DNA of 64,000 nt from Candidatus Nitrosoglobus terrae (GTDB lineage Bacteria; Pseudomonadota; Gammaproteobacteria; Nitrosococcales; Nitrosococcaceae). Positions 42,833 through 62,859 of this stretch are shown in pieces. The stretch covers positions 744,001 through 808,000 of the forward strand of contig NZ_AP014836.1 of NCBI RefSeq assembly GCF_002356115.1. The letters are read 5' to 3'. How positions within the stretch are numbered: position 1 is the stretch's first letter; every line of letters begins with the position of its first letter. The translations under genes were made by a program, and so were the position numbers. The notes beneath the pieces are model-generated. The model saw only the letters and a list, made by a program, of their open reading frames with translations. It searched no databases and had not been told where the DNA came from.

Positions 42833-45595
42833 GTGGATCTATCAGAACGACACGCCCGCACGCATATTGATCAGGCGCTTATGGCTGCCGGTTGGGTGGT
42901 GCAAGATCGCGTCACCTTTAACCGTAATGCTGCACTTGGCGTGGCCGTGCGTGAGTTCTCCTTACCAGAAGGGATTTGCGATTACTTGCTGTTTATCGAC
43001 GGTAAAGCTGCCGGTGTCATTGAGGCCAAAAGGGTGGGTATCACCTTGAGCGGCATCGCTGAGCAGTCCGCCAAATACGTGACCCGCCTGCCAGATCATC
43101 TAGCCCGCTGGGATGATCCGTTACCCTATAGCTACGAGAGCACCGGCGAGGAAACATTTTTCACCCATCAGCGGGACCCCAAACCGCGCCAGCGCCGTGT
43201 ATTTGCCTTTCATCGTCCAGAAACTCTGCACGACTGGCTCAAACAGCCCAACACCTTGCGCCATCGTCTGCAACAACTGCCACCGCGGGACTCTAACGGT
43301 CTGCGAGATTGCCAGATCGACGCTCTCCGTGGGCTAGAGTACTCCTTGGCTGCTGATAAACCTCGCGCGCTGATTCAATTAGCTACCGGCGCAGGTAAGA
43401 CGTTTACTGCTTGTTCATTCAGCTATCGCCTCATTAAATATGCCAGTGCTAAGCGCATCCTGTTTCTAGTAGATCGCAATAACTTAGGGGATCAAACCCT
43501 AAAAGAATTCCAGAACTTCCATCCGCCAGGCGCTGCCAACCGGTTTACCGATACCTACATTGTTCAGCACCTCCACAGCCACCGCATCGATCCAGATGCC
43601 AAGGTCGTCATTACCACTATCCAACGGTTGTACTCGCTGTTGCAGGGCAAAGAGATTGACCCCATGGACGAGGAAGGCTCTGCCTTTGAAACTTGGGCAG
43701 GTAGGCACAAGGAAATTCCTACCCTCACTTATAATCCCGCTATCCCCATCGAAACCTTTGATTTTATTGTCACTGATGAATGTCATCGCTCTATCTATGG
43801 GTTGTGGCGACAAGTGCTGGAGTATTTTGATGCCTATCTCATTGGCCTTACTGCCACGCCTTCCAAGCACACGCTGGGCTTTTTCAATCAAAACTTAGTC
43901 GCTGAATATCCCTACGAGCGCTCCGTGACTGATGGCGTGAACGTCGGCTATGAGATTTACCGCATTCGTACCCGTGTGACGGAAGAGGGTGGCAAAGTCG
44001 AAACCGATGCCGCCGGTTTTCAGGTGCCAGTGCGGGACAAACGCACTCGCAAGGTGCGCTATGAAAACCTCGATGGAGATCTAGAATACAGCGGGCAAGA
44101 GCTGGATCGCTCAGTAGTGAATCCAAATCAGATCCGCACCGTGCTACAAACCTACAAAGATCGGGTATTTACCGAACTGTTTCCCGAGCGCAGCGGCCAA
44201 TGGCTGCCTAAAACTTTGATCTTTGCCAAAGACGATAACCACGCCGAGGAAATTGTCCACGCGGTGCGGGAAGTGTTTGGCGAAGGCAATGACTTTGCTA
44301 AAAAAATCACCTACCAGACGGGCAGCGAAGATCCCAAGGCGCTCATTAAAGCCTTTCGTGTTGATCCCTTTCCCCGCATAGCCGTCACCGTGGATATGAT
44401 TGCCACTGGCACCGATATTAAACCGGTAGAAGTGCTGATCTTCATGCGGGATGTGAAATCTGAGGGTTATTACGAACAAATGAAAGGCCGGGGCGTGCGT
44501 ACCATTCCCGATGCCGATTTACGCCAAGTCACCCCTGATGCCCACACCAAAACCCGCTTTGTATTGATTGATGCCGTAGGGGTAACAGAGACCAAAAAAA
44601 ATACGAGCCAGCCCCTGGAGCGTAAAAGAAACCTTAGCTTTGAAAAATTGCTAGATCAAATCGCCATGGGACGACGGGATGAAGACGCGCTTTCATCCCT
44701 TGCCGCTCGCTTTGCAGCGCTGGATCGTAAGCTAAATGACGATGACCGCCAACGCATCACCCAAGCTAGCGGCGGCCACACCCTACGCCAGCTCGCCAAT
44801 ACATTGCTCGATGCTATCGATCCCGACGGGCAACAAGCCGCTATTCACACCCAATTGGGCACCATAGCCACGCCCGAACAAGCACAACAAATCATCTCTG
44901 CCCTGATGGATACCGCTTGTGCGCCGTTCAATGACCCCATCCTGCGCCAAACACTGCGGGATCTTAAGCAGAAAACCGACATTATCATTGACGAAACTAC
45001 GCCTGATGAAGTGATTCACACCGGATTCGACCTGAAAAAAGCCGAAGCAACCATCACCAATTTTAAAGCCTTCATCGCCCAGCACCGCGACCAACTCACG
45101 GCGCTACAAATCCTCTACAACCAGCCCTACGGCCAGCAAAAACTCACCTACGTCGCCATTCGTGAACTGGTGCAGGCGCTCACCGAACGCCCGCCCCATC
45201 TCTCACCGGCCACCGTTTGGCAAGCTTATAAACGATTGGATAACGCTAAGGTGCGTGGCGTGCCGGTGGATGAACAACTCACTGAAGTGGTGAGCCTCGT
45301 ACGCTTTGCCCTAGGGCAAGTTGAAACCCTAGAACCCTTTGGCACTGTGGTACAACAGCGTTTTAATCTCTGGCTCGGGCGAGAAAAGAAAGCGGGGCGG
45401 GAATACAGCGAAGCGCAGCAAGATTGGCTGCACGCGATTGCCAAATGTATTGCTGCTAATGCTGAAATCACGCCCCGCGATTTTAGGGAAGCGCCAATTT
45501 TGGCAGATAAGGGCGGTATTCTGGAGGCGCGGCAGGTGTTAGGGGAGGGGTTAAACGGATTATTAAGTGAAATGCAAATAGCATTGGTGGCGTGA
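42833..45595 (+). CDS. hsdR: Type I restriction enzyme R subunit
   Basis: DNA translocase and nuclease of a type I restriction system. 920 residues from a GTG. The N-terminal nuclease has GICDYLLFIDGKAAGVIEAK (PD-ExK). The helicase core has LIQLATGAGKTFTACSFSYR (Walker A), VTDECHRSIYG (DECH box), GLTATPSK, and a second RecA domain with MIATGTDIKPVEVLIFMRDV. A C-terminal helical region binds the M/S complex. GC is far above the neighbours: a hand count of 43141-43200 gives 63%. hsdS starts within its stop codon. Confidence 0.96.
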   Translation: MDLSERHARTHIDQALMAAGWVVQDRVTFNRNAALGVAVREFSLPEGICDYLLFIDGKAAGVIEAKRVGITLSGIAEQSAKYVTRLPDHLARWDDPLPYSYESTGEETFFTHQRDPKPRQRRVFAFHRPETLHDWLKQPNTLRHRLQQLPPRDSNGLRDCQIDALRGLEYSLAADKPRALIQLATGAGKTFTACSFSYRLIKYASAKRILFLVDRNNLGDQTLKEFQNFHPPGAANRFTDTYIVQHLHSHRIDPDAKVVITTIQRLYSLLQGKEIDPMDEEGSAFETWAGRHKEIPTLTYNPAIPIETFDFIVTDECHRSIYGLWRQVLEYFDAYLIGLTATPSKHTLGFFNQNLVAEYPYERSVTDGVNVGYEIYRIRTRVTEEGGKVETDAAGFQVPVRDKRTRKVRYENLDGDLEYSGQELDRSVVNPNQIRTVLQTYKDRVFTELFPERSGQWLPKTLIFAKDDNHAEEIVHAVREVFGEGNDFAKKITYQTGSEDPKALIKAFRVDPFPRIAVTVDMIATGTDIKPVEVLIFMRDVKSEGYYEQMKGRGVRTIPDADLRQVTPDAHTKTRFVLIDAVGVTETKKNTSQPLERKRNLSFEKLLDQIAMGRRDEDALSSLAARFAALDRKLNDDDRQRITQASGGHTLRQLANTLLDAIDPDGQQAAIHTQLGTIATPEQAQQIISALMDTACAPFNDPILRQTLRDLKQKTDIIIDETTPDEVIHTGFDLKKAEATITNFKAFIAQHRDQLTALQILYNQPYGQQKLTYVAIRELVQALTERPPHLSPATVWQAYKRLDNAKVRGVPVDEQLTEVVSLVRFALGQVETLEPFGTVVQQRFNLWLGREKKAGREYSEAQQDWLHAIAKCIAANAEITPRDFREAPILADKGGILEARQVLGEGLNGLLSEMQIALVA

Positions 45596-47082
45596 TGAGT
45601 TGGAGCTTTGTCAAACTGAGAGATGTAGTTGCACATTTTGAAAGCGGAAAGCGACCTAAAGGAGGAGTTTCTAAGTATACAGATGGTATTCTTAGCCTTG
45701 GTGGTGAACACCTAGATTACAATGGAGGGTTTTTTCTAGAAAATCCAAAATTTGTCCCTGAGAAATTTGCTGAGAGTCTTCATAAAGTTCAAATAGAAGA
45801 AGGAGATATTCTCATAGTTAAAGATGGAGCAACAACAGGGAAAATAAGCTTTGCTACGGCTGAAGTAAAAAACTCTGTCATCAATGAGCATCTATTTCAA
45901 CTTAGGCCAACAGAGGCGGTTAATTCCAAGTTTCTTTTCTATTTCTTGTGGTCTTCATCTGGAAACAAAGAAATATTGAAAGATTTTCGAGGATCAGCTC
46001 AAGGTGGAATCACAAAATCAGTTCTTAATGTTTGTGAGGTGCCAGTTGCATCCCTCAATGAACAACGCCGCATTGTCGAGAAAATCGAAACGTTGTTTGC
46101 ACGGTTGGATGCAGGCGAGGCGGCGCTGAAAAAGGTGCAAACCCTACTGGCGCGCTATCGCCAATCAGTGCTCAAGGCCGCCGTTACTGGCGATCTTACC
46201 CAAGATTGGCAGGTGCAAAACGCTGGATGCGTTGAATCCGGCCACGATTTGCTGCAACGTATTCTTAAAACCCGCCGCGATAATTGGCAAGGTCGGGGCA
46301 AATATAAAGAACCTATCGCGCCGGATACCACGAGTTTGCCCAAATTGCCGGAAGGGTGGGTGTGGGCTTCGCTTGATGCGTTAATAGTTGATGGCCCAAC
46401 AAATGGGTTATCACCGAAAGTGTCTACTGACGGTACAGGTGTGCCATCTTTCAAGCTCACCGCAACTACATCAGGCACGTTCGTGATTAATGGTGAGACG
46501 GTCAAGTATGTTAATGCTCATATTGAAGCTGATTCCAAATATTGGCTCCAAAAAGACGATGTACTGATTCAACGAGGAAATACTATTGAATATGTCGGCA
46601 CTGCAGCAATTTTTCCGGGGCCAAATAATGCTTTCATTTACCCTGACTTGATGATGCGTATCAGGTTTGAGGATGAACTACTAGCGCGATGGGTCGTGAC
46701 TTGGATTAATTTTGAGTACGCGAAAAAGTATTTTCGTCGACTGGCCACAGGCACAGCAGGCAACATGCCTAAGATAAATAGCACAACTTTGAATACGCTG
46801 CCGGTTCCGATGCCATCGTTTGAAGAGATGCAACAAACACTTGAAATTACTGAGAGTATTGAACATCGATGTAGAGGTTTAGAGGATGCAGCGCGTGCCG
46901 AACTTGCCCGATCCAAAGCACTACGCCAATCTATTCTGAAACAAGCCTTTGCTGGTCGCTTGGTGCCCCAAGATCCTAATGACGAACCGGCCAGCGAGCT
47001 GCTGGCCCGTATTCGTGCTGAGTGCCAAAGCATCTCTAACAGCAAACGCCGTCGATCCACAATGTTAAAGAAACAAGCATGA
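45595..47082 (+). CDS. hsdS: Type I restriction enzyme specificity subunit S
   Basis: Chooses the target sequence for methylation and cleavage. 495 residues, two target-recognition domains each followed by a long helix: LNEQRRIVEKIETLFARLDA after the first, and the RSKALRQSILKQAFAGRLVP helix at the end. The first recognition domain (45600-46060) is AT-rich (35% GC by hand count at 45721-45780) next to a conserved helix at 60% (46141-46200), a pattern that fits domain swapping. The start ATG overlaps the hsdR stop; the gene overlaps hsdM by four bases. Confidence 0.94.
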   Translation: MSWSFVKLRDVVAHFESGKRPKGGVSKYTDGILSLGGEHLDYNGGFFLENPKFVPEKFAESLHKVQIEEGDILIVKDGATTGKISFATAEVKNSVINEHLFQLRPTEAVNSKFLFYFLWSSSGNKEILKDFRGSAQGGITKSVLNVCEVPVASLNEQRRIVEKIETLFARLDAGEAALKKVQTLLARYRQSVLKAAVTGDLTQDWQVQNAGCVESGHDLLQRILKTRRDNWQGRGKYKEPIAPDTTSLPKLPEGWVWASLDALIVDGPTNGLSPKVSTDGTGVPSFKLTATTSGTFVINGETVKYVNAHIEADSKYWLQKDDVLIQRGNTIEYVGTAAIFPGPNNAFIYPDLMMRIRFEDELLARWVVTWINFEYAKKYFRRLATGTAGNMPKINSTTLNTLPVPMPSFEEMQQTLEITESIEHRCRGLEDAARAELARSKALRQSILKQAFAGRLVPQDPNDEPASELLARIRAECQSISNSKRRRSTMLKKQA

Positions 47083-48515
47083 GTAACGAACAACTGGTCT
47101 CGAAGGTCTGGAACTATGCCCATGTATTGCGTGATCAGGGCATTTCTTACGGCGATTACGTCGAGCAAATTACCTATCTGCTGTTTTTGAAGATGGATCA
47201 GGAGCGAGTGGAATTATTGGGTGAGGAATCCAGCATTCCGCCCCAGTGGAATTGGCAGCAGTTGATCAGCAAGGAAGGGGATGATCTAGAGTTGCAATAT
47301 CGCCACACGCTAGAGGCGCTGGCACGGGAATCGGGACTGATAGGCACCATTTTTCGTAAATCACAAAATAAGCTCTCTGATCCCGCTAAGCTTAAGCGGG
47401 TGGTGAGTTTGATTGATACCGAAGGGCCGTGGATAGGTCTTAAAGTGGATATAAAGGGGGAGATTTACGAAGGACTGCTGGAGCGCAACGCTAGCGAGGT
47501 GAAATCGGGGGCGGGGCAGTATTTCACGCCGCGGCCAGTCATTGAGGCGATTGTGGCCTGTATTCAGCCGAAAATTCATGAAACGGTCTGCGATCCGGCG
47601 TGTGGTACCGGTGGATTTTTATTGGCTGCTTTTGAGTATATGAAAACCCAAAGCCAAGATCGGGAAACGCTACGCCGCTTGCGTACCGAAGGACTGCACG
47701 GCACTGATATTGTGGATGAAGTAGTGCGGTTGTGCGCGATGAATTTGTATTTACATGGTATTGGCAACGGGGATAGCTCCGTCGTACAGGCTGATGCGCT
47801 GGCAGTGGCACCGGCGCAGCGTTATGGCGTGGTGCTCACCAATCCGCCTTTTGGCAAAAAATCCAGCTATAAGGTAGTGGGGGAGGATGGCAGAGGCACC
47901 AGCGAGCGGGAACACTATGAACGGGAAGATTTTAAATTCACAACCTCCAATAAGCAGTTTAATTTTTTACAGCATATTATGACTATCTTGGATACCTATG
48001 GCCGTGGGGGGGTGGTGTTGCCGGATAACATACTGTTTGAAGCCGGGCGCGCGGGTGAGGGTATTCGCAAGCGGCTGCTGGAGGGTTTCAACTTCCATAC
48101 CCTGCTACGCCTGCCCACGGGTATTTGGTACCGCCCCGGTGTCAAGGCCAATGTGCTGTTTTTTGATAAGCGCCCCGCCTCCCGGGAGGCTCAGACTCAA
48201 GGGCTATGGGTTTACGATTACCGTACTAATATACATAAGACGCTGAAAACTAAACGGCTGGTGCGCAGTGATTTTGATGATTTTGTGCATTGTTATCATG
48301 AACGGAAGGAAACCGAACGCTTTCGCTATTTCAGTTATCAAGCGCTGATGGCGCGCGATAAGCTGAATCTGGATATTTTCTGGCTCAAGGATAATAGCTT
48401 AGAGGATATAGACAGCCTGCCAGAGCCGGAGGTGTTGGCAGCTGAGATCGTGGAGAATTTAGAAGCTGCCCTAGAGCAGTTTCGCAGTGTGAGCGCCGAG
48501 CTGGCAACCGAATAA
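47079..48515 (+). CDS. hsdM: Type I restriction-modification methyltransferase subunit M
   Basis: Adds methyl groups to adenine in the recognition site, 478 residues. An N-terminal helical domain (VWNYAHVLRDQGISYGDYVE) precedes the catalytic domain with GQYFTPRPVIEAIV, the SAM motif DPACGTGGFLLAAFEYMK and the catalytic LTNPPFGKKSS. The ATG overlaps the hsdS stop (ATGA). The order R-S-M, with M last, differs from the common R-M-S or M-S-R. All three subunits appear intact, so the system is probably active. Confidence 0.96.
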   Translation: MSNEQLVSKVWNYAHVLRDQGISYGDYVEQITYLLFLKMDQERVELLGEESSIPPQWNWQQLISKEGDDLELQYRHTLEALARESGLIGTIFRKSQNKLSDPAKLKRVVSLIDTEGPWIGLKVDIKGEIYEGLLERNASEVKSGAGQYFTPRPVIEAIVACIQPKIHETVCDPACGTGGFLLAAFEYMKTQSQDRETLRRLRTEGLHGTDIVDEVVRLCAMNLYLHGIGNGDSSVVQADALAVAPAQRYGVVLTNPPFGKKSSYKVVGEDGRGTSEREHYEREDFKFTTSNKQFNFLQHIMTILDTYGRGGVVLPDNILFEAGRAGEGIRKRLLEGFNFHTLLRLPTGIWYRPGVKANVLFFDKRPASREAQTQGLWVYDYRTNIHKTLKTKRLVRSDFDDFVHCYHERKETERFRYFSYQALMARDKLNLDIFWLKDNSLEDIDSLPEPEVLAAEIVENLEAALEQFRSVSAELATE

Positions 48516-48586: not shown

Positions 48587-50389
48587 ATGAGCAAACGGAT
48601 TGAGGATTATGGCCTGATTGGCAATATGGTTTCCTGTGCCTTGGTTGGCCGTGATGGTTCCATGGATTGGCTCTGCTTGCCCCATTTTGACTCCGATGCC
48701 TGTTTTGCCGCGTTGCTCGGCACCCCAGAGCATGGCCGTTGGCTGATTGCCCCGAAAACTGCAGTTAAAAGCATAACACGGCGTTATCTGCCGAATACGG
48801 TTGTTTTAGAAACTACTTTTGAGACTGAGAGCGGAGTCGCTCAAATCATAGATTTTATGCCCCTGAGTAAAAACGAGACCATGGTGGAGGTGGTGCGAAT
48901 CGTTCGGGGTATAAAAGGTCAGGTTGACATGCGGATGGAGCTTGTGCTGCGTTTTGGTTATGGGAAAACGGTTCCTTGGGTGCATCGGTGTGATTATGGC
49001 ATTAATGCTGTTGCCGGGCCGGATGCTGTAGAGTTACTGACTCCAGTGCGTTTATATGGTGAAAACCTCACAACATGCGCTAATTTTACCATCGAGGCAG
49101 GGCAAAACATACCGTTTACACTGGTTTATCATCCCTCTCAGACTGAGCCTAGTTTTATTGGTGATCGTCAGGTAGCCCTTTCCCAGACCGTGGATTGGTG
49201 GGGTGAATGGTCTAGTTACTTTCGTTTTGATCCTTCAGCGCCCATCGCATGGAAAGAGGCGGTGATTCGGTCGTTAATTACCCTTAAAGCCTTGACTTTT
49301 CAGCCCAGCGGTGGCCTTGTGGCGGCCCCTACGACTTCATTACCCGAACAGATTGGCGGGATTCGCAACTGGGATTATCGTTTTTGTTGGATTCGCGATG
49401 CCACCATGACCCTCTATACATTCCTGAACTCTGGATATCTTGAAGAGGCCAAAGCTTTCCGTGAATGGCTATTGCGGGCTGCGGCTGGGAATCCAGAGCA
49501 GATGCAAATTATGTATGGGCTGAGAGGTGAGCGGCGGCTGACGGAAGTGGAACTGCCTTGGTTGCTTGGCTATGAACATAGCCTCCCCGTACGTATTGGG
49601 AATGGCGCTTATGGGCAAACCCAGCTTGATGCCTATGGCAATCTCATGGATATGGCCCATGCCGCCCGACATTCTAATCTAGGGCCTTCCCATTCTGCAT
49701 GGCGGCTTCAATGGGCATTATTGAAAAATCTGGAACGTATTTGGTGTGAGCCGGATGAAGGAATCTGGGAAATACGCGGTGAGCCCCGCCATTTTACTTA
49801 CTCAAAGATCATGAGCTGGGTAGCGTTTGATCGGGCGGTAAAAGGGGTAGAGGAGTTTAACTTAGACGGCCCCGTTGATAAGTGGCGGCAAATACGAGAT
49901 CAAATCCGAGCCGATATTCTTGCCAATGGCTATGATCAAAAGCGTAATACTTTTGTTCAGGCCTATGGCTATAGCAATCTCGATGCCTCGTTATTATTGA
50001 TAGGTAAGACTGGATTTTTGGAACGAGGCGATCCCCGTTTTCAGGGTACCGTGGAGGCCATTGAGCGGGAATTAATGGAAGAAGGGTTTGTACTACGCTA
50101 CCGATCTGAGCAAACGGATGATGGATTAATAGGAGAGGAGGGGACTTTTCTTATCTGCAGCTTCTGGCTCGTTGATGCCTATATGCTATTAAATCGCTAT
50201 GATGATGCAGCTGCTCTATTTGAGCGACTGTTATCGGTGCGGAATGATTTAGGGCTTTTGGCTGAGGAATATGATCCACAAGCACGCCGGCAGCTTGGAA
50301 ATTTCCCGCAAGCCTTCTCCCATCTTGGTTTGATTAATGCCGCCCGTAGCTTATTGGGAATTTCTACTTTGAGTGCGCCTAAAAAATAA
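48587..50389 (+). CDS. Glycoside hydrolase family 15 protein (glucoamylase/trehalase-like)
   Basis: Releases glucose from alpha-glucans or trehalose. 600 residues, no signal peptide, so cytoplasmic. N-terminal beta-sandwich with IEDYGLIGNMVSCALVGRDG and DWLCLPHFDSDACFAALLG; the (alpha/alpha)6 barrel holds RNWDYRFCWIRDATMTLY near residue 265 and the region with the second catalytic acid (ILANGYDQKRNTFVQAYG and LLAEEYDP). This bacterial subgroup includes trehalases, and trehalose would fit the TreS and GlgE genes nearby. Substrate not decided by sequence. Confidence 0.88.
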   Translation: MSKRIEDYGLIGNMVSCALVGRDGSMDWLCLPHFDSDACFAALLGTPEHGRWLIAPKTAVKSITRRYLPNTVVLETTFETESGVAQIIDFMPLSKNETMVEVVRIVRGIKGQVDMRMELVLRFGYGKTVPWVHRCDYGINAVAGPDAVELLTPVRLYGENLTTCANFTIEAGQNIPFTLVYHPSQTEPSFIGDRQVALSQTVDWWGEWSSYFRFDPSAPIAWKEAVIRSLITLKALTFQPSGGLVAAPTTSLPEQIGGIRNWDYRFCWIRDATMTLYTFLNSGYLEEAKAFREWLLRAAAGNPEQMQIMYGLRGERRLTEVELPWLLGYEHSLPVRIGNGAYGQTQLDAYGNLMDMAHAARHSNLGPSHSAWRLQWALLKNLERIWCEPDEGIWEIRGEPRHFTYSKIMSWVAFDRAVKGVEEFNLDGPVDKWRQIRDQIRADILANGYDQKRNTFVQAYGYSNLDASLLLIGKTGFLERGDPRFQGTVEAIERELMEEGFVLRYRSEQTDDGLIGEEGTFLICSFWLVDAYMLLNRYDDAAALFERLLSVRNDLGLLAEEYDPQARRQLGNFPQAFSHLGLINAARSLLGISTLSAPKK

Positions 50390-50490: not shown

Positions 50491-51948
50491 TTAAGTGTGA
50501 GGAGGGCTAATTTGGGCATCATCGATCATCCCAAGCGCGTCCGGTACCAATACTGCCACCGAGAAGTAGGTACTCACCAAGTACGAGAGGATCGCCTTTT
50601 CATTGATATCCATGAAACGCACGCTGAGTCCGGGTTGATATTCATTAGGAATGCCGGTCTGGTGTAACCCGACAACACCTTCGTGTTCCTCGCCCGTACG
50701 CAGCACAAGAATGGGGCTGGTTTGCTCGCGGGTGATTGGAAGCTTGTTACAGGGCAAAATAGGCACACCTCGCCAAGCCATTACTGGCGTTCCTTCGATT
50801 TCAGTGGTCGCGGGGTAGATACCGCGGTGAGTACACTCCCTTCCGAAGGCAGCGATGATTCGAGGGTGTGTGAGGAAGAAACGGGAGCGCCTACGGCGAC
50901 TAAGTACCTCGTCGAGATCTTCTGGTGTCGGTGGACCGTTGCGGGTGTGTACGCGCTGGTTTGGTGCTACATTGTGCAGCAGGCCAAAATCGTTGTTATT
51001 GATCATCTCGTGCTCTTGGCGTTCCCGCAAAGCCTCAATAGTCAATCGCAGCTGCTGTTCGGTCTGATTCATGGGGTTGTTAAATAGGTCAGCGACACGG
51101 GTATGTACCCGCAGTATGGTTTGCGCGACCTCGAGTTGATATTCACGGGGCTTTTGCTCATAGTCAACGAATGTGCTGGTAAGCAACTGTTCCCCGTGGT
51201 GACCGGAGGAGATCTCGATTGAGGCCTCGCCATGTTCATTCTGTGCTTTACGGAGCTGCGCCTTAAACTGATTTACTCGGGTTCGCAGAGCATCCGATCG
51301 TTGCGCCATATTTTCGAGGGTGCTTTGCTCTAGCGTCAGCACGGTGCAGCGGGTAACGGTTTTTACGGTGAACTGCCAGGTGTCCGAATCTTCGACAAGC
51401 GTACGATCGCCAAAATAGTCGCCGTCTGTGAGCATGCCGAGTGTGGTTGAGGTGTCGTATTTACCCTGACCGATCTTCTTAACTTTGCCGTGCACGATGA
51501 GCACAAGCTGATCGGCAGGTTGTCCGGCCTCTACTAACACCTCGCCCGAAGAGATTTCTTGCTGCACAAACTGATCAGCGATCTCGCTGAGCACTTCATC
51601 ATCGGTCAGTCCCCGAAAAAGTGGAATTTCGCGCAACTCTTGCTCGAGTATTGGTTCCGACACTGGTAAATGTTAGCCTACCATCGCCGACTGTATAGTT
51701 GAGTCGCCGGTTGACGCGGTAGGTTCCACCGACTACCTCCACCCCACCCAAGGAAGCACGCGTAGCAACCACCGTGAGGTGATGCCCTGCATCTGTGGAA
51801 CAGTTTTAGTTGTGGTTGCCAGATTTTGGGCGGCTTTCGTTCCTAAGCTCTGGGGCACTTGGCTGTTTTGAGCGTTATCGCCGCCCTTTGGATCGATTGG
51901 TTGGTTCAATGATGCTAAATAAATTACTAGTGATTGAGGTAATTTCAA
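50491..51948 (-). pseudogene. Family 2B encapsulin shell protein gene (cyclic-nucleotide-binding domain insert), broken by two frameshifts
   Basis: The major piece (51663-50491, 390 codons) has a cNMP-binding-like domain ([52 protein letters not shown]), followed by the shell body ([60 protein letters not shown]). Upstream, 51948-51733 encodes the N-terminal arm ([20 protein letters not shown], then WLLRVLPWV) and stops. Between them (about 51740-51650) a second frame reads GGTYRVNRRLNYTVGDGR, the missing link. The shifts are at about 51740 (GTGGG followed by GTGGAG, looks like a 5-base duplication) and about 51650. They cancel, giving 486 codons overall, close to my recollection of the family length. 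The start is a TTG at 51948 or 51909; no clear ribosome site. Shells of this family enclose enzymes; no known cargo type is adjacent. Confidence 0.82.
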
Positions 51949-52133: not shown

Positions 52134-53087
52134 TTACAGCCATCCTTTACGTTTAAAATAAAGATAAGGTGCAAAACTGGAGATAACCATAATAATCAGC
52201 GCCATGGGATAGCCTAAGTGCCAATGTAGCTCGGGCATGATATCGAAATTCATTCCATAGATGCTCGCAATCAGGGTGGGGGGCAAAAAAACGACTGCTA
52301 CGACTGAAAAAATCTTAATTGTTCGATTTTGTTCAATATTGATAAAGCTTAGGGCGGCATCCATAAGAAAATTGATTTTATCAAATAAAAAGGCGCTATG
52401 AGGTAGGAGGGAGTCCACGTCGCGTAAAATTTCTCGTACTTTTTTAATTTGCTCATCCTCTAAGTGCCCTCGGCGTAACAGAAAGGTTAAGGCCCGCTGA
52501 GTGTCCATTAAGCATAGACGCACCTTTCCATTGTGATTTTCTTGGCGGGCTAATTCATCTAATGCATCTTCAAATGCCCCATTACCTTCCTCATTTTCTT
52601 CTAAAATAAGTTTACCGACCTGATCTAACCCTTTATGGGTTTCTTCTAACAGATCGGCCAGCTCTTCGAGCTTAGTTTCAAATAATGCGAGTAGGATCGA
52701 AGTTGCATCGGTAATTAAACTTGGTTCCCGTCGTATCCGTAACCGTAGCATCCGAAAAGCCGGCAGATCATGGTCGTGTAAGGTAAAGAGGCGAGTACCG
52801 CTCAGGGTAAAGACTACAGTTGAGTAATCAATTCGTCCTTCTTCACGGTGAGAGAAATAGGAGTGTAAATGAATGCCAACTTCATCTTCGTAAAAGCGGG
52901 CAGTGGCTTCAATTTCCTCAATTTCATTTGGGTCAGGTAAATTTTGGCGATAAATCAATTCAACTCGCCGGCGTTCTTCCTCAGTAGGACGCAATAGATC
53001 AATCCAGATGGCTTGAGCTAAGCCATCGTTTTCTTCTAAAGGAAGCTGCTTAAAACGATGATCATGTAGGGAAAATCCATATAACAT
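52134..53087 (-). CDS. corA: CorA-type magnesium/cobalt transporter
   Basis: Divalent-cation channel of the inner membrane. 317 residues: a mainly acidic cytoplasmic N-terminal domain, a long helix, and two C-terminal membrane helices (IFSVVAVVFLPPTLIASIYG and MALIIMVISSFAPYLYF) flanking the YGMNFDIMPEL selectivity motif. It ends in KRKGWL, a basic CorA-type tail. It lies 186 bases upstream of the encapsulin gene on the same strand, with no sign of joint function. Confidence 0.95.
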   Translation of the reverse strand: MLYGFSLHDHRFKQLPLEENDGLAQAIWIDLLRPTEEERRRVELIYRQNLPDPNEIEEIEATARFYEDEVGIHLHSYFSHREEGRIDYSTVVFTLSGTRLFTLHDHDLPAFRMLRLRIRREPSLITDATSILLALFETKLEELADLLEETHKGLDQVGKLILEENEEGNGAFEDALDELARQENHNGKVRLCLMDTQRALTFLLRRGHLEDEQIKKVREILRDVDSLLPHSAFLFDKINFLMDAALSFINIEQNRTIKIFSVVAVVFLPPTLIASIYGMNFDIMPELHWHLGYPMALIIMVISSFAPYLYFKRKGWL

Positions 53088-53657: not shown

Positions 53658-55646
53658 ATGCAATATAAAGCGGGTAGAAAACGCGTAGTTATTGAAGGGG
53701 TAACCCCTGAAATTGACGGTGGTGATTTCGCAATTAAACGAACTGTGAATGAAACTGTGATAGTAGAGGCCGATGTGTTTACGGATGGCCACGATGCGGT
53801 GAGTGCTGTTTTACAGTATCGTAAAGCAGGGGCAACCACTTGGGATGAGGTGCCAATGCAGCCTTTAGGTAACGATAGATGGCAAGGTTGCTTTAAGGTC
53901 ACTGAAATAGGACGCTATCAGTATACCCTTGCGACTTGGGTGGATCATTTTAAATCTTGGCGTCAAGCGTTAGCTAAGCGGACTCAGTTAACGGATATTG
54001 TGCTTCAGCTTCAAGTGGGAGCTCAGCTGATAGAGGCAGTGGCTGAGCGCGCCGATGAAGAGGACGCTAAACGGCTTAGGGAGCAGGCTAAGATTCTAGC
54101 CGATAAAGGAGATCTTCATAAAAGATTGACGATTGCCCTTGAAGATGAGATAGCCCTATTAATGGATCGTTATCCAGATCAACAGTTGGTAACCCGCTAT
54201 GATAAAAATTTATCCGTCATTGTAGAGAGGGTACGGGGTCGGTTTAGTACTTGGTATGAAATGTTTCCCCGTTCTTGTACCTTAGTATCCGGCCAGCCGG
54301 GTAATTTTAATACCTGTGAGGATCGTCTGCCTTATATTGCAGCTATGGGGTTTGATGTACTTTACTTACCTCCTATCCATCCCATTGGTCATATCCATCG
54401 TAAAGGTAAAAATAATACCTTGGTTGCTGGTGCTGAAGATCCAGGGAGTCCTTGGGCCATTGGGGCGGAGGAAGGCGGGCATAAGAAAATTCACCCCCAA
54501 TTAGGTACCTTTAAAGATTTTCAGCGTTTTATAGCCAAAGCACGGGAATATGGAATTGAGGTGGCGTTAGATATTGCTTTTCAGTGCGCTCCTGATCACC
54601 CTTATGTTAAAGCGCACCCAGAATGGTTTCGTTGGCGACCTGATAATACGGTGCAATATGCTGAGAATCCTCCCAAGAAATATGAAGATATCTATCCATT
54701 TTATTTTGAAACTGATCAATGGGAGCCTTTGTGGGATGAGCTGAAAAGTATATTTTTATTCTGGATTGAGCAGGGGATACATATTTTTCGGGTAGATAAC
54801 CCTCATACTAAACCTTTTCCCCTATGGGAGTGGCTGATTGCTGAGGTGAAGAAAGTCGCCCCTGATACCCTGTTTTTAGCGGAGGCGTTTACCCGCCCTA
54901 AGGTGATGCACCGCTTGGCTAAGCTAGGGTTTAGTCAGTCCTATAATTATTTTCCTTGGCGAAATACTAAGCAAGAACTCATCGCCTATTTTACTGAGCT
55001 TACCCAGTCAGAATCTAGAGAATACTTTCGCCCTAATCTTTGGCCAAATACCCCGGATATTTTACCGGAATACCTCCAGTTTGGCGGGCGACCTGCTTTT
55101 ATGATCCGGTTGTTGCTTGCGGCCACTTTAGGGGCTAGCTATGGTATTTATGGCCCGGCCTATGAATTGATGGAAAATACACCCCGAGATTTAGGGGGCG
55201 AAGAATATCTTGATTCGGAGAAATATCAACTACGTCACTGGAATATTACCCGTACCGATAGCCTTAAGGATTTCATTGCTCAGGTAAATCAAATTCGTAA
55301 AGATAACCTTGCCCTCCAATCAGATTGGAGTTTGCGTTTTTACCCCATAGATAACGATCAGATGATTTGCTATAGCAAGTGGACGGAAGATCTGAGCAAC
55401 ATTATTTTAGTTGTTATTAATTTAGATGCTCATCATACCCAGTCTGGGTGGGTTGAATTACCCTTAGAGCGTTTAGGGCTTAAGGAAAATCTTCCTTATC
55501 AGGTACATGATTTGCTCAGCGGTACTCGCTACTTATGGCAGGGGTATCGTAATTACGTAGAGCTTAATCCTCAGATCGCTCCAGCCTATATTTTCTCAGT
55601 GAGGCGCCGAGTACGGACTGAGCACGATTTTGATTATTATTTGTAA
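53658..55646 (+). CDS. glgE: Alpha-1,4-glucan:maltose-1-phosphate maltosyltransferase GlgE
   Basis: Extends alpha-glucan with maltose from maltose 1-phosphate. 662 residues, GH13 subfamily 3 type: N-terminal domains with RVVIEGVTPEIDGGDFAIKR, then STWYEMFPRSCT, the GKNNTLVAGAEDPGSPWAIG loop, and the catalytic Asp of IFRVDNPHTKPFPLWEWLI and Glu of FLAEAFTRPKVMHRLAKLGF. It is followed 6 bases later by treS-maltokinase, which would supply its substrate. A branching enzyme (glgB), frequently next, is missing from the window. Confidence 0.95.
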   Translation: MQYKAGRKRVVIEGVTPEIDGGDFAIKRTVNETVIVEADVFTDGHDAVSAVLQYRKAGATTWDEVPMQPLGNDRWQGCFKVTEIGRYQYTLATWVDHFKSWRQALAKRTQLTDIVLQLQVGAQLIEAVAERADEEDAKRLREQAKILADKGDLHKRLTIALEDEIALLMDRYPDQQLVTRYDKNLSVIVERVRGRFSTWYEMFPRSCTLVSGQPGNFNTCEDRLPYIAAMGFDVLYLPPIHPIGHIHRKGKNNTLVAGAEDPGSPWAIGAEEGGHKKIHPQLGTFKDFQRFIAKAREYGIEVALDIAFQCAPDHPYVKAHPEWFRWRPDNTVQYAENPPKKYEDIYPFYFETDQWEPLWDELKSIFLFWIEQGIHIFRVDNPHTKPFPLWEWLIAEVKKVAPDTLFLAEAFTRPKVMHRLAKLGFSQSYNYFPWRNTKQELIAYFTELTQSESREYFRPNLWPNTPDILPEYLQFGGRPAFMIRLLLAATLGASYGIYGPAYELMENTPRDLGGEEYLDSEKYQLRHWNITRTDSLKDFIAQVNQIRKDNLALQSDWSLRFYPIDNDQMICYSKWTEDLSNIILVVINLDAHHTQSGWVELPLERLGLKENLPYQVHDLLSGTRYLWQGYRNYVELNPQIAPAYIFSVRRRVRTEHDFDYYL

Positions 55647-55652
55647 CAGCTT

Positions 55653-58600
55653 ATGAATCAACTAGAAGAAACCTTTGTTTGGCCAGATGATCCCCTCTGG
55701 TATAAAGACGCTATTATCTATCAGCTTCATGTTAGAGCCTTTTTTGATAGTAATAATGATGGTACGGGAGATTTTCGGGGTCTGACCCAGAAGCTGGATT
55801 ATATCCAGAATTTAGGGGTTAATACGATTTGGTTGCTGCCATTTTATCCTTCTCCTTTGCGGGATGATGGGTATGATATTGCGGATTATCATAATATTTA
55901 TGCAGAGTATGGTACTCGTCGAGATTTTAGGAATTTTGTGCGTGAGGCCCATAGCCGCGGGCTAAAAGTGATTATTGAGCTAGTTATTAACCATACTTCA
56001 GATCAGCATCCTTGGTTCCAAGCCGCCCGTAAAGCCCCTTCAGGATCGGCCAAACGAAATTTTTACGTTTGGAGCGATACTGATCACAAGTTTCCTGAAA
56101 CTCGAATTATTTTTACGGACACGGAAACCTCTAATTGGGCTTGGGATCCGGTAGCTAAGGCTTATTATTGGCATCGGTTTTTCTCTCATCAACCTGATCT
56201 CAATCATAATAATCCGGCGGTGGTTAAGGCGGTCACTCAGGTGATGCGTTTTTGGCTAGACATGGGCGTAGATGGTCTGCGTTTAGATGCTATCCCTTAT
56301 CTTTGCGTGCGGGAAGGAACCAATAATGAGAATCTACCTGAAACCCATGCCGTGATTAAACAGATGCGATCGGTGGTAGATACCTATTACCAAAACCGAG
56401 TATTTTTAGCCGAAGCCAATCAATGGCCGGAAGATGTCAGCGAGTACTTTGGGGAGGGAGATGAATGCCATATGGCCTACCATTTTCCATTAATGCCCCG
56501 TATCTATATGGCGGTTGCTCAGGAAGATCGGCATCCTATCACCGAAATTATGAATCAGACGCCCGATATCCCTGAGAATTGTCAATGGGCTGTTTTTCTA
56601 CGTAATCATGATGAGCTTACTTTGGAGATGGTCACCGATAAGGAGCGTGATTACATGTACCAGACCTATGCGGCTAATGCTCGGATGCGGGTTAATGTGG
56701 GCATACGGAGACGTTTGGCACCATTGATGGATAACGATCCAGCCAAGATCCAGCTTATGAATAGTCTACTGCTTTCTATGCCTGGATCTCCGGTAATTTA
56801 CTATGGCGATGAAATTGGCATGGGGGATAATATTTACTTGGGGGATCGTAATGGTGTACGCACCCCGATGCAGTGGAGCCCAGATCGTAATGCGGGGTTT
56901 TCTAAAGCTGATCCCCAGCGTTTGTATTTACCACCGATCATGGACCCCGTTTACGGTTATGAAGCCGTCAATATAGAAGCCCAGAATCGGGATCTTTTTT
57001 CTTTTCTAAACTGGATGAAACGTCTACTTGCAGTACGTAAGAGCGTTAAAGCATTTGGTCGGGGTACGCTGAAGTTTCTTCGTCCTGGAAATCGTAAAAT
57101 TTTAGCCTATGTGCGGGAATATGGGGATGAGATTGTTTTATGCGTGGCTAATTTGTCTCGCCATGCCCAGCCGGTAGAGCTGGATCTCTCTCGCTTTCAG
57201 GGGAAGATGCCTATAGAGATGATGGGGCAGACTACGTTTCCGCTTATCGGCGAGTTGCCCTACTTATTAACGCTCCCTAGCTATGGTTTCTACTGGTTTA
57301 AGCTAACAACAAGTGAGGATTCTTATTGGAGCGAAAGGCAGCAACCCTTATTGGAATCACCCGTATTAGTATTCTTTGATGGCTGGAGCAGCTTATTTCC
57401 TGATCGAGTCAACCCTTCTCGTAAACGCATGGCTGAGACTCTCCGCAAACAGCTAGAGCAGGCATTGAGAGATTTCTTGGCTTCACGTCGTTGGTTTGGG
57501 GCTAAGGGAGAAATCATAGAGCGAGTGGTTTTACAGCAGGCGCAAGAGTGGAAGGCGGAGGGTAGCTGGCTGCTTGCTTGGGTAAGGGTAGATAGTCATT
57601 CTAAATCCCAGCGCTATTTTGTACCTTTAGCGATTGCTTGGGGAGAGGGTGATGAAGAGCCTATACGCCGATTACTGCCCTTTACTGTTGCTAAAATTCG
57701 ACGACGATCCCGTCTGGGTATTTTGTATGATGCCTTAGAGGATATTGTTTTTGTTCGATCGCTGGTGATGGCAATAAAACAGCGTCAGGAGATTCCTTTT
57801 GGGGCTGGAAAATTAAAATGTTTTCCTACTGCTGCCTTTGAGAAACTGACAAGTGAAGTATCGGTACAGCAGCTAGAGCGCCCTGGCACGGAAGGCACAA
57901 ACAGTGCCTTGATTTTGGATGAGCAATTATTTTTTAAAGTTTACCGTCGCTTACAAGAAGGGATAAATCCTGAGCTGGAAATGGGACGTTTTTTAACTGA
58001 ATCGTCTCCATTTTCTAATATTGTGCCTTTAGCTGGTGCTTTAGAATACTCAGGATCTGAGGGAGAATCCGTTACTCTAGCCTTGTTACAAGGCTTTGCC
58101 GTTAATCAGGGAGATTGCTGGAATTACACCATTGATTATTTAAAACGTTTCTTAGCCTATGGAGTGGCTAGACCCTCAGATGAGGCGGTCATTGAGATTG
58201 AAGAATCTGCGGCCAATTACATGAGGATCATAAAGATCCTTGGGCAACGTACTGGAGAGATGCATCAAGCCTTAGCTAAGGTTACGGGAGATCCAGATTT
58301 TGATCCAGAGCCTATTACTGCTTCTGATTTATCCGCTTGGCGCAAAGATATTGAACAAGAGATCTTACAGACGCTGCAGAAAATAGCGCAGGGTAGTGGG
58401 GGTTTTTCTGAGTCGCTGCAAATTGATTTGGATCGTTTATTAGCTTCTAAAGAGGATTTGCTACAGCGGCTTGATGGTTTGATACTTACTCAAGTGCAAG
58501 CGGTTAAAACTCGGCATCATGGGGATTATCATTTGGGCCAAGTTTTAGTAGCAGAAGATGATTTTATCATTATCGATTTTGAAGGCGAGCCGATCCGTCC

Positions 58601-58985
58601 GCTGGCTGAGCGTCGCATAAAGCATTCACCCTTACGGGATGTAGCAGGTATATTACGATCCTTTAGTTACGCTGCTGCTGTTGCCTTACATCATTGTACG
58701 GTAGATCGTCCCGAGGATCAGAGCTTACTTGATCCCTTGGTTTCTGCTTGGGAAAAAGAGGTCATAGAGAGTTTCTTAGCAGGGTACAGTGAGGCAGTCG
58801 AAAGTTGTCCCGCTTATCCTCAAGACTCTAGGCATTTTTGGCAGCTTATTGAGTTGTTTGTTTTAGAAAAGGTACTTTATGAGCTGCGTTATGAGCTTGA
58901 TAATCGGCCAGAATGGGTGGGTGTACCTTTAGGGGGGTTATTGCGATTTTTGGCGGAAGGGGGTATGAGGGGACAGCCCGTCTAA
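55653..58985 (+). CDS. treS: Trehalose synthase fused to maltokinase (TreS-Pep2)
   Basis: Interconverts trehalose and maltose, then phosphorylates maltose for GlgE. 1110 residues in two parts. Residues about 1-555: GH13 domain with YKDAIIYQLHVRAFFDSNND, catalytic Asp of GVDGLRLDAIPYLCVREGTN, Glu of FLAEANQWPEDV and Asp of FLRNHDELTLEMV. Residues about 580-1110: maltokinase/aminoglycoside-phosphotransferase-like, with the catalytic HHGDYHLGQVLV and metal-binding IIDFEGEP. Fused TreS-maltokinase proteins are known in other bacteria. The gene set points to trehalose-to-glucan conversion. Confidence 0.95.
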   Translation: MNQLEETFVWPDDPLWYKDAIIYQLHVRAFFDSNNDGTGDFRGLTQKLDYIQNLGVNTIWLLPFYPSPLRDDGYDIADYHNIYAEYGTRRDFRNFVREAHSRGLKVIIELVINHTSDQHPWFQAARKAPSGSAKRNFYVWSDTDHKFPETRIIFTDTETSNWAWDPVAKAYYWHRFFSHQPDLNHNNPAVVKAVTQVMRFWLDMGVDGLRLDAIPYLCVREGTNNENLPETHAVIKQMRSVVDTYYQNRVFLAEANQWPEDVSEYFGEGDECHMAYHFPLMPRIYMAVAQEDRHPITEIMNQTPDIPENCQWAVFLRNHDELTLEMVTDKERDYMYQTYAANARMRVNVGIRRRLAPLMDNDPAKIQLMNSLLLSMPGSPVIYYGDEIGMGDNIYLGDRNGVRTPMQWSPDRNAGFSKADPQRLYLPPIMDPVYGYEAVNIEAQNRDLFSFLNWMKRLLAVRKSVKAFGRGTLKFLRPGNRKILAYVREYGDEIVLCVANLSRHAQPVELDLSRFQGKMPIEMMGQTTFPLIGELPYLLTLPSYGFYWFKLTTSEDSYWSERQQPLLESPVLVFFDGWSSLFPDRVNPSRKRMAETLRKQLEQALRDFLASRRWFGAKGEIIERVVLQQAQEWKAEGSWLLAWVRVDSHSKSQRYFVPLAIAWGEGDEEPIRRLLPFTVAKIRRRSRLGILYDALEDIVFVRSLVMAIKQRQEIPFGAGKLKCFPTAAFEKLTSEVSVQQLERPGTEGTNSALILDEQLFFKVYRRLQEGINPELEMGRFLTESSPFSNIVPLAGALEYSGSEGESVTLALLQGFAVNQGDCWNYTIDYLKRFLAYGVARPSDEAVIEIEESAANYMRIIKILGQRTGEMHQALAKVTGDPDFDPEPITASDLSAWRKDIEQEILQTLQKIAQGSGGFSESLQIDLDRLLASKEDLLQRLDGLILTQVQAVKTRHHGDYHLGQVLVAEDDFIIIDFEGEPIRPLAERRIKHSPLRDVAGILRSFSYAAAVALHHCTVDRPEDQSLLDPLVSAWEKEVIESFLAGYSEAVESCPAYPQDSRHFWQLIELFVLEKVLYELRYELDNRPEWVGVPLGGLLRFLAEGGMRGQPV

Positions 58986-61284: not shown

Positions 61285-62859
61285 ATGAAAAAAATGGTAA
61301 TTATCTCCCTAGCGCTTATGGGCATCGGAGCGCTGAATGTAGGGCAAGCTGTAAATTTAGATTCTAACGGCTTAGGGGAGGTATTGATCTATCCTTACTA
61401 TACCGTCAGGAATGGAAGCGATACTTTGTTATCCATAGGCAATACAACAAATAATGTTAAGGCAATAAAAATACGGTTTTTAGAGGCTGAAAATAGCCGT
61501 GAAGTTCTCGATTTTAATCTATATTTGCCTGCTTATAGTGTCTGGGTATCTTCTCTTACAAGCTCAGAAACAGGCACTGTGCTGACTACCTCTAGTGCTC
61601 TTTGTACGGTTCCAGCGATTCCATCCACAGGCGTAGCGTTTAGTAACACTGCCTATTCAGAGCAACAGGCAGATGGAGGAGATACCTCGCTAGATCGTAC
61701 CCGTGAAGGATATATTGAAATTATCGAAATGGGAGTAGTTACTGATTCAGGTAGCTTTACGCCAGCAACGGCAGCCACTCCGGTAAATAGTATGCCGCAA
61801 GATTGCGCTACCCTGACGGCGGCATGGTCTGCGGGGGGGCAATGGGCGAGTAACCCCAATGATGGGATCACTTTTAGCCCTGGGGGGTTAAAAGGCAATG
61901 GAGTTTTAATTAACCTTAATAAAAATAGTAATTACAATTATGTTGCTGCAGCTATTGTTAATTTTGCTTCTGCTGCTAACCATACACCTCCCGGTGCTCT
62001 AAGCCCAAGCTTAGCAGATAATAGCGGTACCAGTGACGTGCTTACCCCTACCGGGGAGATAGTGACTTCCACTTGGAGCAATAAGATTGATGCAGTCAGC
62101 GCGGTGCTGATGAGTAAGTCCATAGTCAATGAATATAATACGGATGCTAGCTTAAATGCTGCAACTAATTGGGTAGTGACCTTCCCTACTAAGCATTTCT
62201 ATGTGCAGTCAGGATCCCCTAATGCTAATGGGGTAGTCTCAACAACGCCCATACCGGCTACCGCACCCTTTACGAGTTTTTTTACTCAGGGCGGCGCTTG
62301 TGAAGAGGTAAAGCTAGCTATTTCAACTTCCCCGAAAAATAAGAGTAGCCTGTGTTGGGAGACCAATGTAATTACATTTAATAATGCCGTTGTACTTGAA
62401 TCATTACTATTACTTAACGTGGATGCCCCGACAGATCAGGAAAGTGGCATAGCCCATTTATTTTTCCCAAGCGTAAATGGCGATCATAGTATTACTGATA
62501 GTAGTGGCGTTATTTACCAAGGATTGCCTGTAGTTGGGTTTTCTGCAGAGGAATTTGTGAACGGTACGTTAATTTATGGCATTACGCTTAACCATGGCTT
62601 TGCTCGTAAGATTAAAGCACCTACGGATAATGATCCTACTCTTAGTTCTACAGGTCTCTTAACTAATCTGCTGAGTGGCAATCTACCTGTAGAGGGATCG
62701 GGAGTAGGTGTTGTAGGTGCGGGTAGACTTGGGAATGTAGGCAATCCAATTACTGGAAACGGAAGATTAGGCAGCAAGCTAGGCGATGTAGGCGATCCAT
62801 TAGGCGGCCTAGGAGGCGATGGGATTATTGGTGGAGGTGGGTTTGGATTTATATTCTAA
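61285..62859 (+). CDS. Secreted protein of unknown function with glycine-rich C-terminus
   Basis: 524 residues with a signal peptide (MKKMVIISLALMGIGALNVG, cleavage near GQA). The mature start GLGEVLIYPYYTVRNGSDTL and the following KAIKIRFLEAENSREVLDFN and NLYLPAYSVWVSSL resemble a widespread family of exported proteobacterial proteins of unknown role. Cysteines come in a few places (LCTVP, QDCAT, GGACEE, LCWET), possibly disulfide pairs. The last 60 residues are Gly-rich with repeats such as GRLGNVGNP and GRLGSKLGDVGDPLGG, and end in GFGFIF. A cell-surface location is inferred. Its stop overlaps the phoH stop. Confidence 0.65.
   Translation: MKKMVIISLALMGIGALNVGQAVNLDSNGLGEVLIYPYYTVRNGSDTLLSIGNTTNNVKAIKIRFLEAENSREVLDFNLYLPAYSVWVSSLTSSETGTVLTTSSALCTVPAIPSTGVAFSNTAYSEQQADGGDTSLDRTREGYIEIIEMGVVTDSGSFTPATAATPVNSMPQDCATLTAAWSAGGQWASNPNDGITFSPGGLKGNGVLINLNKNSNYNYVAAAIVNFASAANHTPPGALSPSLADNSGTSDVLTPTGEIVTSTWSNKIDAVSAVLMSKSIVNEYNTDASLNAATNWVVTFPTKHFYVQSGSPNANGVVSTTPIPATAPFTSFFTQGGACEEVKLAISTSPKNKSSLCWETNVITFNNAVVLESLLLLNVDAPTDQESGIAHLFFPSVNGDHSITDSSGVIYQGLPVVGFSAEEFVNGTLIYGITLNHGFARKIKAPTDNDPTLSSTGLLTNLLSGNLPVEGSGVGVVGAGRLGNVGNPITGNGRLGSKLGDVGDPLGGLGGDGIIGGGGFGFIF

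Follow-up and report, generated by a model that had tools for sequence, protein, structure and literature searches.

A family 2B encapsulin gene broken by two indels in the ammonia oxidizer Candidatus Nitrosoglobus terrae, very probably a recent pseudogene of a horizontally acquired, cargo-less shell gene

Introduction

Family 2B encapsulin shell proteins (NCBIfam model NF041163, encap_f2b, with a curated cut-off of 400 bits; PF19307 with a PF00027 insert; PDB 9bix, 9bhu and 9bje) are built in a common order, with the N-arm first, then an E-loop into which a cNMP-binding-like domain is inserted, then the HK97 body, and their genes have cargo genes nearby that encode a terpene cyclase, polyprenyl transferase, cysteine desulfurase or xylulose kinase (PMC8346489). 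The Enc2-type shell protein of Streptomyces lydicus, one of this family, forms shells alone (PMC12407261). The related family 2A encapsulin (SrpI; NF041162) has a similar HK97 body and N-arm and does not contain the cNMP-binding-like insert.

In this article, I will discuss a 2B locus in the 64,000 nucleotides of contig NZ_AP014836.1 that were analysed (positions 744,001 to 808,000, hereafter the window, numbered from its first letter). It is very probably a horizontally acquired family 2B shell gene of the Enc2 type that lies, cargo-less, with a GH15 gene on one side and corA on the other, and that two genuine mutations have recently turned into a pseudogene. A search of the literature for a frameshifted encapsulin found no paper.

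The broken shell gene

The minus strand from 51948 to 50491 holds one complete family 2B encapsulin gene spread over three frames (Table 1), the pieces following one another on the same strand and in the right order in the first, the second and again the first frame. Compared with the family, all three match NF041163 independently (N-terminal E 4.6e-15; middle 3.4e-9; body 1e-187 over model positions 68-449), the body alone reaching 624.7 bits, above the cut-off, and a six-frame search of the organism's own genome joins them into a single match (model 1-449, 685.7 bits) interrupted by one TAG and one TAA. The body frame is open for 390 codons and stops at 50491; its residues 35-122 are the cNMP-binding-like domain (PF00027, E 5.3e-15), placed after the E-loop strand and ahead of the HK97 body, and its residues 135-386 match the SrpI-like HK97 shell body (PF19307, E 5.1e-133, profile positions 2-253 of 254). 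These results uphold the original prediction, made from the letters alone, on the arrangement of the pieces, on the 2B identity and on the nucleotide-binding-like domain inside the shell protein. The best solved relatives of the body are the three 2B shells named above (9bix at 3.6e-153, 9bhu and 9bje), and an SRRRR motif of the Enc2 type places the putative shell protein with the Enc2 types. The N-terminal piece has no in-frame ATG and offers TTG codons only (at 51948, and another in CATTGAACCAACC). Since no single frame encodes the whole shell protein, two indels interrupting it with a TAG and a TAA between them, the locus is very probably a pseudogene of the family rather than a working member.

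Table 1. Features of the shell gene and its two flanking genes (window coordinates)
Feature	Coordinates	Strand	Basis or remark
GH15 gene, intact, syntenic anchor	48587..50389	+	PF00723; 70% identical to the G002 gene, L117:6530-8323
Body: rest of E-loop, cNMP-binding-like insert, HK97 shell body	50491..51663	-	Coordinates include the stop
Lesion 2: net loss of 8 bases (GTCGGAACC...), return to the first frame	51649..51661	-	Homologue spacing
Middle piece, shifted frame	51655..51741	-	NF041163 32-68
N-terminal piece (N-extension, N-arm)	51733..51948	-	NF041163 1-35; closed by in-frame TAG 51735-51733
Lesion 1: GGTGG GGTGG perfect tandem, +5 bases	51739..51748	-	Homologue spacing
CorA gene, intact, syntenic anchor	52134..53087	-	PF01544; 82-83% identical to the G002 gene

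The lesions were sized by aligning the pieces with 81 full-length homologues, drawn from the genome collection and one gammaproteobacterium. Seven residues separate the W of LPW from the Y of YRVN in 81/81 homologues, and the window is 5 bases longer at this point, after the N-arm codons, where the 5-base duplication suspected earlier is plain to see. GDGR and the E that opens E(L/I)xLLRG, in the E-loop's first strand region, are 18 residues apart in the homologues (again 81/81), and the window has 46 bases there, which is 8 short; the second shift, read earlier as a net single base, is one only modulo 3, and a single-base change is rejected in favor of -8. Summed, the lesions give +5 - 8 = -3, which returns the last piece to the first frame, and the original frame between them meets the TAG and a TAA at 51675-51673. 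They lie about 80 bases apart and neither sits in a homopolymer; the gene, at 53% GC, deserves its earlier description as GC-rich only relative to the window (43%).

How recently did the gene break? The body runs through its 390 codons without a stop. A stop would result from 3.6% of all possible single changes, so that its absence caps the neutral substitutions at about 83 (7% of sites). The two cut-off pieces still keep 32/32 of the columns conserved at >=95% and the body 120/136, so that the whole gene keeps 152/168, below every single homologue (minimum 93.5%), the changes at strongly conserved columns being mostly conservative. This lowered conservation is compatible with a deep lineage that has decayed mildly at most, and the fewer conserved columns may reflect that depth rather than decay. 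Because the body is stop-free and the conserved columns of the cut-off pieces are intact, the break is probably recent, in agreement with the earlier judgement that each half is otherwise well kept and the break therefore recent or artificial.

Genomic setting, origin and cargo

The genome of 2.02 Mb (two contigs, 99.98% completeness) carries an ammonia/methane monooxygenase subunit A gene (PF02461, E 9.7e-118) and one encapsulin copy only. Comparison with relatives, as proposed in the original prediction, detected no encapsulin in five same-family genomes (genome sizes in the family run from 1.8 to 4.1 Mb), and in G002, the nearest relative by corA identity, GH15 and corA are only 575 bases apart, with an unrelated ORF of 121 aa in that space; a search of the window for an orthologue of this ORF was negative. 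The encapsulin body also has the highest GC3 (0.579) of the 44 long ORFs in the window. Because none of the five same-family genomes carries the gene, the G002 site is empty of it and its GC3 is the highest, horizontal gain would be the most economical explanation; the relatives could instead all have lost it, at the price of more events. The best identity, 63%, is to a gene of the gammaproteobacterium G230, and the tree, in which the window gene forms a long branch with unsure placement beside another long branch, points to no particular donor.

The other open neighbouring genes are hsdR, hsdS, hsdM, glgE and a TreS-maltokinase fusion. The type I restriction-modification operon (hsdR, hsdS and hsdM; 42833-48515) and a zinc-type alcohol dehydrogenase are missing between the syntenic neighbours in G002; hsdR and hsdM, at GC3 0.56, are close to the encapsulin body and also foreign-looking, and the operon region looks like a second insertion adjoining GH15. 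On the other side, glgE is followed by the trehalose synthase-maltokinase fusion (53658-58985), an alpha-glucan (GlgE) pathway pair that G002 does not have here, and a 524-aa, secreted-looking ORF with a glycine-rich tail at its end (61285-62859) has no Pfam match at 1e-5.

No cargo gene lies beside the shell gene, whose flanks are GH15 and CorA. The genome-wide cargo search covered terpene synthase, cysteine desulfurase and polyprenyl synthase. No PF19086 terpene synthase was found in the genome, although, as a positive control, the same search succeeded in each of the three homologue-bearing genomes. Nor was there an extended cysteine desulfurase of the SufS type (the largest strongly matching frame has the ordinary length of 428 aa) or an extended polyprenyl synthase, the two polyprenyl synthases present both being of ordinary length. 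Six-frame segments of the intergenic stretches, compared with all loci gathered for the analysis in search of cargo remnants, matched only encapsulin copies, or the shadows of these in antisense or in another frame, apart from a few weak hits. As no cargo was found and the motif is of the Enc2 type, whose S. lydicus representative makes shells unaided, the shell gene was probably already an orphan when it broke.

Competing explanations

The course of events that I favor would begin with a single 2B shell gene gained horizontally and sitting without cargo between the GH15 gene and corA, in which replication slippage would have duplicated 5 bases after the N-arm codons and a net 8 bases would have been deleted in the E-loop's first strand region. 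Translation from the original start would then end at the TAG with a short peptide, and a product started at the internal GTG 51663 would be without the N-arm, the N-helix and the first E-loop strand, so that shell assembly would most likely fail. A tandem duplication of 5 bases and a net deletion of 8 are typical of replication slippage, and sequencing errors are mostly single bases in homopolymers; since neither lesion has that size or that setting, slippage fits better than error. The leading option of the original prediction, a recent pseudogenisation, is thus strengthened, and the sequencing or assembly fault that it also entertained becomes less likely than it had allowed. Such a fault would mean that the gene is intact in the living organism and that its shells are empty or hold an unknown cargo, and it would account for the well-kept sequence outside both lesions, in which even the cut-off pieces retain every strongly conserved column, in an isolated gene that has no close relative for comparison. 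However, two errors of this unusual kind so close together in one gene, with intact neighbours, in a genome of that contiguity and completeness, would be odd, and neither the missing in-frame ATG nor the missing terpene-synthase cargo speaks for a working gene, so this explanation is rather unlikely.

The body might instead have been kept for a new role, as a protein of about 390 residues from GTG 51663 with the cNMP-like domain and a partial HK97 body and no shell, and its uninterrupted 390-codon frame with both domains recognisable is what one would expect of it. However, no Shine-Dalgarno-like stretch precedes this GTG, the parts needed for a shell's N-terminus and E-loop are absent, and selection on the body alone should have let the N-terminal pieces decay more, when in fact the untranslatable pieces are the fully conserved ones and the body is not; this speaks against a shortened protein, which I consider very improbable, and it is just as improbable that this ammonia oxidizer still makes the body from an internal start as a freestanding HK97/cNMP-domain protein with a sensor-like role. 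Programmed recoding, with two frameshifts yielding a full shell protein, could draw on the net change being a multiple of three, with the last piece in the first frame again, but neither overlap holds a canonical slippery X XXY YYZ heptamer (the two heptamers found are both upstream and out of phase), a shift at lesion 1 adds residues and one at lesion 2 leaves residues missing from a spacing invariant in the 81 homologues, and 0/81 of these need any recoding. In view of the lack of a phased slippery heptamer and the altered invariant spacing, what the original prediction had ranked as its least likely option is effectively rejected.

Discussion

A recent pseudogene of a known family is an ordinary finding, with no new way of reading genes and no new system. 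It does indicate that a family 2B shell gene reached the lineage of a gammaproteobacterial ammonia oxidizer and was then lost, apparently without cargo, and such gain and loss would fit the dispensability of cargo-less shell genes; the two-lesion break also explains the partial encapsulin that automatic annotation would report here.

Among described loci, the terpene-cyclase encapsulin operon of G230 (L003) is closest to the window pieces. Its encapsulin is intact. Directly upstream lies a terpene cyclase that resembles geosmin synthase and bears the motifs GPTGLGT and GLGTSAAR, and on the other side lies an ORF that, judged by eye, resembles isopentenyl-diphosphate isomerase; neither the cyclase, the motifs nor the isomerase-like ORF occurs in the window. 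In the draft genome of G230 this cyclase (contig C403, 2181-2649, upstream of L003 1-1441) is itself in two frames, with pieces at 2181-2495 and 2500-2649, which is perhaps an assembly fault. In Kitasatospora, the homologous shell gene adjoins a SufS-family cysteine desulfurase. The window gene resembles the SrpI type of family 2A in its HK97 body and N-arm (E 1.1e-99 against NF041162), but its 333 bits stay under the 380-bit cut-off of that model and it has the insert that 2A does not. It shares with the family 2B shells their domain order, about 60% identity and the Enc2-type RRR motif and, unlike them, it is broken by two indels, single, and accompanied by no recognised cargo gene.
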